The position numbers were made by a program, and so were the translations under genes. From Nocardioides astragali (GTDB taxonomy: Bacteria > Actinomycetota > Actinomycetes > Propionibacteriales > Nocardioidaceae), in NCBI RefSeq assembly GCF_024436375.1, contig NZ_JAFMZM010000001.1, positions 682,001 through 746,000 on the forward strand: 64,000 nucleotides of DNA, in the 5' to 3' direction. Positions 24,235-27,662 of this stretch are shown here, piece after piece (within the stretch, counting starts at the first letter, position 1; the number at the start of each line of letters is the position of its first letter). The notes beneath the pieces are model-generated. The model saw only the letters and a program-made list of their open reading frames with translations, had not been told where the DNA came from and made no database searches.

Positions 24235-25671
24235 TCAGCGTTGCAGGGTGAGCAGGCCCGGCCGGTACGGCAGCGACGTGTAGGGAGCGCCGTCCGAGGA
24301 GGGGTTCCTGCCCTGGTAGAGGAGCTGCAGGTTGCAGGGGTCGATGGTCATGGTCTGGTCGGGGTTCTCGCGGATCAGGTCACCGTGGCTGATGTCGTTG
24401 GTCCAGGTGGCACCGCTGTTCGCCTTGCCCGCGAAGGGGTTGCTCTCGGTGGCGGCCTGCGGGGTCCACGAGCCGTTCAGGCTGGAGGCCGTGAACGAGC
24501 GGAAGAAGCGCTGCTCGTTCACACCCCGAGCCTCGACGATCATGAGGTACTGGTTCTGCCCCTTGACCCTGTAGACCTCCGGCGCCTCGAACAGGTTCTT
24601 CTCCGTATCGCTCATGACCGTCGTGAAGGAGGAGCCGAAGCTGCTGGGGAAGTTCCCGATCGGCATGCTCGCCCGATAGATGCTGCCGTTGTCAGCGGCG
24701 AAGAACAGGTACATGTTCTGGTCGTCGGCGATCATGGTCGGGTCGATCGGGGCGTCCCTCCGGTTCGGATCGGGGTTCTGGGGGAGGGTGCCGGTGAACA
24801 GCGGCTGCTTGGCGGACCAGCCGTTGGGGTTGGTGGGGTCGCTGGACGTGCGGTAGTAGAGCGGCCACTGACTCCACTGGGACACCATCACCCAGACGTT
24901 CTTGGGCGCGAAGTAGAACACTTCGGGCGCCACCGCGGACTCGTTCATCGGGGTCTGGGTGGCTGCCCCCATGTCCGACCAGTTCGTGAAGGGGCTGAAC
25001 ACCGTCGAGCCCCAGTCCGTTCCGTTGGAGGTGGTCGCGTAGACCAGGTGCTTGCCGTTGTACGTGGTGGTGCTGAAGTCCTTCAGCGCGACCTGCCCGT
25101 TCGCCGGCTGCGCCAGCGGGCCGGTCGAGGTCCAGCGGTAGGTCGACGGCAGGGCGCAGGTGCCGCCCGTGCCGGCCAGGCCGGTCCACTTCTGGTTGGT
25201 GCCGCCGTGGCACGACCAGATCTGCACTCCGGTGCCGTTGGTCTTGCCCCAGCCCGCGGCCTCCAGGCACAGCCCGGACTGGACGCCGACGATGGTGCCG
25301 TCGGAGTTCACCCGCCATTGCTGGTTCGCGCCGCCGTGGCAGGTCCAGATGTGCACCGGGGAGCCGTTCGTGGTGGCGCCGCCCCGGACATCGAGGCACT
25401 TGTTGCCGTACACGGTGATCTGGTTGCTGTCCGTCAAGGTCCACTGCTGGTTGATGCCACCGTGGCAGTCCCAGATGTGCACGTTTGCGCCGTCGGTCTG
25501 GCTGAAGCTCGCCACGTCGAGACAGCGGCCGGAATCAACACCGCGCACGTCGCTGGTGGTGGCGGCCTGGGCCGGGTTGGCGACGAGCAGCGCCGCCAGG
25601 GCCACGAGGGCCGCAACCGCGGCGGTGAGCGCCGCAGGCAGAGCCCTGGCACCTGACTCTTGTTTGCGCAT
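24235..25671 (-). CDS. Secreted GH62 alpha-L-arabinofuranosidase with N-terminal CBM13 lectin (copy A)
   Basis: A 478-residue precursor from the ATG after AAGGAGA. Residues 1-38 are a signal peptide ending AQA. Residues about 42-165 form a ricin-type trefoil lectin (CBM13) with three QxW repeats, then a GH62 catalytic domain beginning [15 protein letters not shown]. Visible catalytic regions are [15 protein letters not shown] and LFEAPEVY, carrying the expected two aspartates and the acid glutamate, so it should be active. GH62 enzymes remove arabinose from arabinoxylan outside the cell. Two LacI-type operators and a CRP-like site precede it. It pairs with the tandem copy B. Confidence 0.93.
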
Positions 25672-25714
25672 CTGGGGGTCTCCTTGATAAAGGGACGGAA
25701 CTGACAGCGGTGGT

Positions 25715-25726
25715 GTTATCGCTAAC
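25715..25726. promoter_or_regulatory. LacI-type operator, proximal (GH62 copy A)
   Basis: GTTATCGCTAAC, a one-mismatch form of the palindrome GTTAGCGCTAAC, 44 bases upstream of the start. It matches the half-site style of LacI-family sugar repressors. The perfect form lies further upstream at 25826. No matching repressor gene is adjacent. Confidence 0.6.
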
Positions 25727-25740
25727 ATTTGGCACGTCAC

Positions 25741-25756
25741 TGTGACGTGGCTCACA
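25741..25756. promoter_or_regulatory. CRP/GlxR-like site (GH62 copy A)
   Basis: TGTGA-N6-TCACA, an exact match to the CRP-family consensus, about 70 bases upstream of the start and overlapping a 17-bp palindrome (25733-25749). It suggests cAMP-dependent control of the arabinofuranosidase in addition to repression. Confidence 0.6.
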
Positions 25757-25825
25757 TTGAACTGTCAATCACCTGCCGCGCGAACTTCCCATGGTCTCCC
25801 GGCAACGGCCGGCACGGAGGGTTCT

Positions 25826-25837
25826 GTTAGCGCTAAC
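25826..25837. promoter_or_regulatory. LacI-type operator, distal (GH62 copy A)
   Basis: The perfect palindrome GTTAGCGCTAAC, centred 111 bases upstream of the proximal operator. Two spaced sites would allow repression by looping. It lies outside the duplicated block. Confidence 0.55.
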
Positions 25838-25931
25838 GCCCACAGCGCGCACCGCCCTCCTTGACATGGTCAGGCAAGCTTTGCGCGGCCGGCTCTCGCT
25901 GCTGATCCGGAGTGTCACGAGGCGAAGAGAA

Positions 25932-25960
25932 GAACCCCAGCCGACGCGCGGCTGGGGTTC
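25932..25960 (-). terminator. Hairpin terminator of GH62 copy B
   Basis: A 12-bp stem (GAACCCCAGCCG and its complement) around the loop ACGCG, 20 bases past the copy B stop. It is the same hairpin as at 24183-24217, with slightly decayed ends, showing that the duplication included the 3' end. Confidence 0.7.
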
Positions 25961-25980
25961 CCCGAGGTGGAGAGCTCCGG

Positions 25981-27441
25981 TCAGCGCTGCAGGGTCAGCA
26001 CACCCGGCCGATAGGGCAGCGTGCCGTACTCGCCGCCGTCAGTGCTGGGGTCGCGTCCCTGGTAGAGGAACTGCAGATTGCAGGGGTCAATGGTCTTGGT
26101 CTGGTCGGGGTTGGTGCGAAGCACATCGCCGTGGCTGATGTCCCTGGTCCAGGTCGCGCCGCTGTTGGCACTGCCGGCGAAGGGGTTGTTCACGGTGTCG
26201 GCCCCAGCCTGCGGTGTCCACGTGCCGTCGAGGCTGGTGGCCGTGAACGAGCGGAAGTAGCGACCGAACCCTGTGTAGTTCTGGGCCTCGACGATCATGA
26301 GGTACTGGTTCTGACCCTGGACCTTGTAGACCTCGACCGCCTCGAACAGGTTGAGCGCCGTGTCGCTCATGATCTTCGTGTACGACGAACCGAAGCTGTT
26401 CGGGAAGTTCCCGAGCGGCATGCTGGCCCGGTAGGTACCGCCTTCGCCGTCGACGAAGAACATGTACATGTTCGTGTCGTCGCCGATGAGGGTCACGTCG
26501 TACCCGCCCCGGGGTCTCCCGTCGTCCGTGGGGGGGAGGGTTCCGGTGAACAGCTCCTGCTGCGCGGACCAGCCGTTGGGGTTGGTGGGGTCGCTCGAGG
26601 TGCGGTAGGAGAAGGTGCCCTGCCCGCCCCCGTTGTAGGCGAGCACCCAGATGTTCTTCGGGGCGAAGTAGAACAGCGTCGGCGCGATGGCACCGAAGGG
26701 CATCGTGTGCTGGGTGGCGCCGGCCATGTCGGACCAGTTCGTGAAGGGGCTGAAGGACATCAGTCCCCAGTTGCCGTCGGGATAGGGGCGCGAGCCGTGC
26801 GTCGTGGCGTAGACGACCTTCTGGCCGTTGTGGACGACGGCGGTGAAGTCCTTGAGCGCTGCCCACCCCGCCTTCGGTTGTGCCAGGGGGCCGGTCGAGG
26901 TCCAGCGGTAGGTCGACGGCAGCGCACACCCGTTGCTCGTCCCGGCCAGGCCGGTCCACTTCTGGTTGGTGCCGCCGTGGCACGACCAGATCTGCACTCC
27001 GGTGCCGTTGGTCTTGCCCCAGCCCGCGGCCTCCAGGCACAGCCCGGACTGGACGCCGACGATGGTGCCGTCGGAGTTCACCCGCCATTGCTGGTTCGCG
27101 CCGCCGTGGCAGGTCCAGATGTGCACCGGGGAGCCGTTCGTGGTGGCGCCGCCCCGGACATCGAGGCACTTGTTGCCGTACACGGTGATCTGGTTGCTGT
27201 CCGTCAAGGTCCACTGCTGGTTGATGCCACCGTGGCAGTCCCAGATGTGCACGTTTGCGCCGTCGGTCTGGCTGAAGCTCGCCACGTCGAGACAGCGGCC
27301 GGAATCAACACCGCGCACGTCGCTGGTGGTGGCGGCCTGGGCCGGGTTGGCGACGAGCAGCGCCGCCAGGGCCACGAGGGCCGCAACCGCGGCGGTGAGC
27401 GCCGCAGGCAGAGCCCTGGCACCTGACTCTTGTTTGCGCAT
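25981..27441 (-). CDS. Secreted GH62 alpha-L-arabinofuranosidase with N-terminal CBM13 lectin (copy B)
   Basis: A 486-residue paralogue of copy A, transcribed first of the pair but from its own promoter. Signal peptide and CBM13 domain are identical to copy A. The catalytic domain differs at many positions and has small insertions, for example around [11 protein letters not shown] and [14 protein letters not shown], yet keeps ALKDF, the aspartate in GGYDVTLI and LFEAVEVY. It should be an active arabinofuranosidase with possibly different substrate preference. Its start and ribosome binding site are the same as in copy A. Confidence 0.93.
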
Positions 27442-27484
27442 CTGGGGGTCTCCTTGATGAAGGGACGGAACTGACAGCGGTGGT

Positions 27485-27496
27485 GTTATCGCTAAC
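27485..27496. promoter_or_regulatory. LacI-type operator, proximal (GH62 copy B)
   Basis: GTTATCGCTAAC within the duplicated block, 44 bases upstream of the copy B start, same sequence and place as in copy A. Confidence 0.6.
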
Positions 27497-27510
27497 ATTT
27501 GGCACGTCAC

Positions 27511-27526
27511 TGTGACGTGGCTCACA
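27511..27526. promoter_or_regulatory. CRP/GlxR-like site (GH62 copy B)
   Basis: TGTGA-N6-TCACA, identical to the copy A site and at the same distance from the start. Confidence 0.6.
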
Positions 27527-27662
27527 TTGAAATGTCAATCACCTGCCGCGCGAACTTCTCGCTCGTTGTTGACCTCGCGGGTCCAGAACGCGCGCATCCA
27601 AGCGCGCCGACCACATCGTCGGGCTCAGACGACGCGAGGCGCCGAGGTCGTTGCCGTCGGCG

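Follow-up and report, generated by a model that had tools for sequence, protein, structure and literature searches.

How can two neighboring genes share a virtually identical front when the rest of each has gone its own way? The question is raised by a 64,000-nt stretch of the Nocardioides astragali genome (RefSeq assembly GCF_024436375.1, contig NZ_JAFMZM010000001.1, positions 682,001 to 746,000; hereafter, the window). Its minus strand carries two GH62 genes head to tail, B upstream and then A, and these account for both of the GH62 matches in the genome. Each protein has a hydrophobic, signal-peptide-like N-terminus (judged by eye), followed by a lectin domain and a catalytic domain. Our comparisons make it very likely that, in such genes, the promoter, signal peptide and lectin evolve in concert through exchange inside the genome, with divergent catalytic domains. 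The genes and their domains are as follows.

24238..25671, minus strand: gene A without its stop codon (coding 25671-24238, 478 aa; stop codon 24235-24237), secreted lectin-GH62 protein, predicted alpha-L-arabinofuranosidase (Pfam PF00652 + PF03664)
25984..27441, minus strand: gene B without its stop codon (coding 27441-25984, 486 aa; stop codon 25981-25983), secreted lectin-GH62 protein of a distinct catalytic type (Pfam)
25186..25551, minus strand: ricin-type beta-trefoil lectin domain of A, residues 41-162 (Pfam)
26956..27321, minus strand: ricin-type beta-trefoil lectin domain of B, residues 41-162 (Pfam)
24331..25158, minus strand: GH62 catalytic domain of A, residues 172-447 (Pfam)
26077..26928, minus strand: GH62 catalytic domain of B, residues 172-455 (Pfam)

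The PF03664 profile was covered from 1 to 272 of 272 in both proteins, with expect values (E) of 2.8e-138 for A and 1e-126 for B. PF00652 was matched over profile positions 4-126 of 126 (E about 1e-31), and PF14200 in three stretches.

An ungapped comparison of the two genes (offset 1770) delimited the shared front.

25172..25788, minus strand: homogenized block, A copy (promoter, ATG, signal peptide, lectin), with 2 mismatches in 617 bp relative to the B copy
26942..27558, minus strand: homogenized block, B copy

The blocks agree at 615 of 617 bases, and their limits are set by mismatches at 25171 and 25789. The only internal mismatches, at 25689 and 25762, both lie upstream of the gene A ATG at 25671. 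An earlier note on this DNA, whose range of 25172-27558 takes in both blocks and the sequence between them, had described two 617-bp blocks with two differences, both non-coding, and this proved exact. Beyond the block, identity falls to 68% over the next 200 columns toward the catalytic domain and to 42% over the next 200 columns upstream. Not one synonymous difference is present in the coding portion of the block. Synonymous divergence (dS) is 0.008 over codons 1-168, owing to a single synonymous change directly outside the block. For the catalytic parts, dS is 0.502 and nonsynonymous divergence (dN) 0.257, with 205 of 309 aligned residues identical (66%) and several indels, as expected from the note's remark that these halves differ widely in sequence and length. 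The longest identical coding run is 500 nt (1428 aligned coding sites, 235 differences), versus a maximum of 78 nt in 20,000 shuffles. By comparison, the window lectin is separated from that of Streptomyces ureilyticus by a dS of about 0.19, and from those of relatives by about 0.2–0.3. Divergence along the genes is thus far from uniform (dS about 0.01 in the front versus 0.50 in the catalytic part), in line with the note's reading of the sharp edge at the linker as gene conversion or recent domain replacement. These data strongly support an origin of the window block by gene conversion or a comparable exchange within the genome.

Gene conversion and concerted evolution make copies within a genome more alike than orthologues, with edges where homology drops. 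In the scheme we favor, A and B would be old GH62 paralogues (catalytic dS about 0.5), each with a promoter, signal peptide and ricin-type lectin. Homologous recombination between copies in the same genome would at times overwrite one front with the other. The tract would end where homology collapses, at the linker or in the first ∼57 nt of the catalytic domain, leaving the catalytic domains out of the exchange and free to diverge further. For the window, the outcome of the most recent event of this kind would be the 2 differences in 617 bp. Through their common front, the two enzymes may share arabinose-linked regulation, a route of secretion and targeting to xylan.

Genes of both types were then compared across genomes. 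The catalytic domain of A is 93–95% identical to those of S. scabichelini, S. ureilyticus and S. torulosus, the closest among the best 80 of 509 loci. For the B domain, a search of 392 Streptomyces genomes gave a match in at least 217. Among the matches listed, 15 at 79–85% identity make up the B type, with the following match at 71%. These 15 fall in 14 genomes which, together with S. torulosus and the window, gave 16 B-type genomes. A-like partners were assessed in 25 comparisons over these 16 genomes, with only part of the listed GH62 genes taken as partners. In several of our comparisons, these included, the query proteins were one residue short at the C-terminus, with no effect on the outcome. 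As a measure of homogenization, we took the identity of the 400 nt that directly precede the catalytic domain, in each case with the best partner compared. It was 100% in S. ureilyticus (G058) and G253, 98.2% in the window and 98.0% in G374; 96.2% in both G312 and G200; 94.0% in S. torulosus (G060) and G188; and 92.5% in G201. Lower values were seen for G324 (88.2%), G381 (84.2%), G296 (83.8%), G167 (81.6%), G352 (55.0%), G061 (53.4%) and G159 (53.3%). Unlike pairs taken across genomes have a mean identity of 91–92%; hence G201 shows no increase, and G060 and G188 a slight one.

The clearest cases outside the window differ in arrangement. S. ureilyticus has the same gene order, B then A, and its own 836-bp block with two adjacent differences; the promoter in this block is unlike that of the window, and the lectin is ∼90% identical to the window lectin. 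Between the two S. ureilyticus genes (L140 4778-4948) lies a remnant of a further GH62 C-terminal part, with ∼53% identity, which suggests a lost third GH62 copy. G253 has inverted copies on one 10.37-Mb contig, with an 850-bp identical run. In G374, the lectins are 98.5% identical and the genes lie ∼111 kb apart on one contig. The two G200 genes are on separate contigs and do not have a promoter in common. The comparison with relatives, which the note had called for, thus indicates that the same exchange happened in some other genomes.

First trees, built from the 66 of 93 genes whose lectins were at least 60% identical to that of the window, had many low local supports in the lectin clade. 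Further trees were made of 11 A and 11 B genes from 11 of the 16 B-type genomes; left out were G061, G352, G296, G167 and G159, in which partner lectins were unlike or partners were not A-like. For G324 and G381, the partner with the better lectin match was used (L206 and L205), a choice that favors concerted evolution, and these pairs still gave the lowest values. The catalytic tree split A from B with support of 100/100, and a clade uniting the window A and B catalytic domains was rejected by the approximately unbiased test (p-AU 4e-56). In the lectin tree, by contrast with a split by type, lectins paired by genome in 5 of the 11 genomes: support was 100/100 for the window pair, 100/99 for G374 and 97/92 for G200, and the G058 and G253 pairs are identical. 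The remaining six genomes had no resolved pairs. A single clade of B lectins was rejected (p-AU 1.5e-34). No direction of transfer emerged from the lectin tree of these 11 genomes.

Re-pairing tests, with the catalytic domains as control, gave a similar picture. Seven genomes had an A-type partner of at least 78% identity and a comparable lectin; G061 and G381 were left out of this set, since their partners (79–82%) have unlike lectins. Mean lectin identity was 97.42% within versus 92.05% across genomes, and only 1 of the 5040 possible pairings, the true one, reached the observed mean. Catalytic identity was 75.96% within versus 75.92% across genomes, and 1879 of 5040 pairings reached the observed value. 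When the 11 genomes were re-paired at random 100,000 times, the lectin mean was never reached, versus 78,774 times for the catalytic mean. The test treats genomes as independent, although they are not. In four genomes (the window, G058, G253 and G374), the lectins of a pair are more alike than either is to its best A-A or B-B match elsewhere.

Several observations weigh against a general process of this kind. In seven of the 11 pairs, the lectins do not exceed both of these matches: the G312 pair equals its best A-A match, G200 and G060 surpass the B-B match alone, and G188, G201, G381 and G324 surpass neither. Among the partners compared, 7 of the 16 B-type genomes (G061, G352, G296, G167, G159, G381 and G324) have no homogenized pair. 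In all 11 pairs, the end of the best shared segment falls between –13 and +57 nt from the catalytic start; but the unhomogenized G324 and G381 pairs break at this same edge, which thus reflects where homology falls, and the 3' edge alone proves little. In the window itself, both differences lie within ∼100 bp of the 5' edge of the block, leaving an identical interior of 517 bp. Finally, conversion, crossover and re-duplication cannot be told apart by sequence alone.

Other explanations fare less well. A 517-bp interior exceeds the usual short read, the genome is in 16 contigs and both differences lie near the 5' edge, so the blocks might conceivably be a collapsed consensus of more divergent originals. 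We consider such an assembly artefact very improbable, as the sequences bordering the two blocks are unlike at either end, two sites still distinguish the copies, and the same pattern occurs in other assemblies, including two contigs of more than 10 Mb (G253 and G374). The lectin is probably under functional constraint, yet the absence of synonymous differences in the block, set against the divergence from relatives given above, contradicts the idea that strong purifying selection alone keeps promoter and lectin identical, and we give that idea almost no credence.

A more serious rival, possible though unlikely in our estimate, is replacement of the catalytic domain: after tandem duplication of A, one copy would have had its catalytic domain swapped for one of B type, taken from another gene, and would have kept its A-type promoter, lectin and terminator. 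The 3' flanks of the genes bear on this most directly.

24183..24217, minus strand: hairpin terminator after A
25929..25963, minus strand: matching hairpin after B, of the type found at A genes of S. ureilyticus and S. torulosus

These hairpins are nearly identical, despite the unlike coding ends that precede them. Window B has a TGA stop followed by the A-type hairpin, unlike the B genes of S. ureilyticus, S. torulosus, G253 and G374, all four of which have a TAG stop and other downstream DNA; in the first two, the window-type hairpin is absent after B. At their A genes the window's hairpin is present, preceded by additional DNA (∼87 bp in S. ureilyticus) that is missing from both window copies. 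G253 A has a variant hairpin, and no hairpin was found within 170 nt downstream of G374 A. With an A-type stop and terminator on one side and an A-type front on the other, the window B catalytic domain is framed by A-type sequence, as replacement would predict. Moreover, dS relative to S. ureilyticus is 0.12 for the window A catalytic domain but 0.27 for that of B, and the two domains may thus have had separate histories. But the 3' flanks of A and B are only 88% identical over 76 bp, versus 99.7% in the 5' block, which does not fit a single event and makes at least two exchanges likely. In addition, S. ureilyticus has the same order of B then A with a normal B 3' end, and 14 of the 16 Streptomyces B genes already have a lectin of this type, such that no lectin gain is needed. 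We therefore continue to favor concerted evolution of the front. As for direction, the 3' flanks are the sole pointer, and they hint at transfer from A to B.

Lectin DNA appears to move beyond the GH62 family as well. In S. pseudovenezuelae, the B-type GH62 carries a different lectin, and an exact 314-bp lectin run (L024 5319-5632 and 7110-7423) occurs both in this gene and in the neighboring PF09206 arabinofuranosidase gene. This one case suggests that lectin DNA also moves between unrelated catalytic families.

Does the common front place both enzymes under one control region, as the earlier note proposed? The control region common to the two blocks is only ∼117 bp. It includes one of two putative operators found upstream of each gene.

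25716..25725, minus strand: putative inner LacI-like operator of A (TTAGCGATAA), within the block
27486..27495, minus strand: putative inner LacI-like operator of B, within the block
25827..25836, strand not assigned: putative outer palindromic operator of A (TTAGCGCTAA), outside the block
27664..27673, strand not assigned: putative outer palindromic operator of B, outside the block

The outer operators sit in unlike sequence, and because they lie outside the block, the claim of one control region is slightly too strong. The note's interpretation as a whole was upheld in part: for the recent exchange and, with this restriction, for the single control region, whereas its idea that the enzymes may attack different arabinoxylan side chains is a conjecture.

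The pattern TTAGCGNTAA has seven sites in the genome, versus zero for the pattern read backwards. Four of the seven are at the GH62 pair, an inner one in each block and an outer one beyond each. The others lie directly upstream of a gene for a lectin protein with alginate-lyase-like and AbfB domains, directly upstream of a gene for a GH127 protein, and at the divergent starts of an ASD1 + Alpha-L-AF_C arabinofuranosidase (presumably GH51-type) and a GH43 protein. The palindromes beyond the pair were recorded as follows.

G000 C9:713113, C10:101509, C11:506023: LacI-like palindromes

Together with the outer ones at the pair, these rare palindromes flag a limited group of enzymes predicted to be secreted and, for the most part, to release arabinose. 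When one mismatch was allowed, the backwards-read control gave one match. One such site is found ahead of a sugar ABC transporter; ∼1 kb away lies a LacI-family gene (L257 3940-5061), a candidate regulator of the operator set. A second precedes an alpha-amylase family gene and a third a secreted-looking protein, both of which argue against a purely arabinose-related set. Similar sites were found upstream of GH62 genes in L020 to L023, L033 and L157. We infer that the TTAGCGNTAA sites are putative operators of a LacI-type, mainly arabinose-linked set.

The catalytic domains themselves may differ in function, to judge from type-specific residues. The best match to a solved structure was, for both proteins and over nearly their full length, PDB entry 3wmy (E 6.4e-211 for A, 4.9e-191 for B), which we take to be the S. 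coelicolor GH62 enzyme with an N-terminal CBM13-type lectin domain. It has the same domain order as A and B. It differs in that B types lack Trp270, have Gly at 462 and contain insertions, and in that the window has two copies with a copied front. Between the 11 A and 11 B sequences, 46 alignment columns have no state in common (our own count, with gaps taken as a state). Trp270, in the numbering of the S. coelicolor enzyme, is present in 11 of 11 A and 0 of 11 B sequences. Position 462 is Gly in all 11 B sequences; Thr, Leu, Met or Gln in A; and Asn in 3wmy (both positions numbered by our own count along 3wmy). Triad motifs are kept in both proteins (by motif, D198, D310 and E362 in A; D198, D315 and E367 in B); this assignment is our own mapping from motifs. 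The catalytic triad of a fungal GH62 enzyme was shown by mutagenesis, and Asn339 of a fungal GH62 was placed in the +2R site, according to PMC4408175; exchange of an equivalent Asn in the S. coelicolor enzyme is reported there to raise activity on longer chains. We take position 462 to be that +2R Asn position. Our literature search found no paper on Trp270. The 46 separating columns, Trp270 among them, make a functional difference between A and B plausible, perhaps in recognition of the xylan backbone; a difference in the side chain that is cut would be more conjectural. In our reading, the two domains may thus differ in fine specificity.

Where did the pair come from? A GH62 match was found in 2 of 58 relatives, namely the window's own genome and one of the same order, and in none of 36 other genomes of the genus. 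When the whole A protein was searched against 215 genomes of the genus (E up to 1e-30), the only GH62 match was again in the window's own genome; two others matched in the lectin only. Being the only GH62 genes found in 215 genomes of the genus, the pair was probably acquired by horizontal transfer. A check of synteny at the insertion site found ilvA matches in relatives. No empty site could be recognized: in six regions of relatives, none of the others among the nine window genes tested has an orthologue beside ilvA, and the only other matches there are two weak, acyl-CoA-ligase-like ones (∼24% identity). Nor was a donor of the window promoter recovered, as the upstream DNA matched only terminators among the loci compared. 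Aligned with Streptomyces fronts, the window's upstream DNA shows little resemblance beyond the operator. A search of the window for transfer RNA genes found none, and the G+C fraction at the pair is only slightly lower, at about 0.66–0.67.

In the literature searched, the closest case is a GH62 pair in the xyl-doc cluster of Ruminiclostridium cellulolyticum. According to PMC6556953, Ccel_1234 and Ccel_1240 have 5' parts that are >97% identical. The two genes also hardly differ in their GH62 and CBM6 modules, although one of them carries a CE6 module in addition, and the study suggests that they arose by duplication. Like the window, this organism has two GH62 genes in one cluster with near-identical 5' parts. 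There, however, the likeness extends to the GH62 modules, whereas in the window it is the lectin front that is identical, joined to catalytic domains that differ. Relative to known conversion between bacterial paralogues, exchange here would be confined to the promoter–signal–lectin module, with divergence of the catalytic domains, and would recur in several genomes. Judged by title and abstract, none of the papers listed in our search deals with conversion between bacterial GH62 genes; many subscription papers fall outside this search, and earlier reports may exist.

These findings point to concerted evolution at the level of a module in secreted bacterial enzymes, in which control, secretion and binding would be homogenized together while the catalytic parts diversify. 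The four clear cases, along with several that are partial or older, make it possible to measure the length of tracts, the position of their edges and how far exchange depends on homology. The window also provides a natural matched pair of enzymes, in which almost only the catalytic domain differs. More speculatively, and we hold this as a doubtful extension, actinobacteria may use such fronts as a chassis for differing payloads, with repeated conversion among secreted enzymes that act on arabinan and xylan, also of unrelated catalytic families such as PF09206 and GH62, keeping promoter, signal and lectin uniform. If so, new catalytic domains would inherit tuned control and targeting at once.

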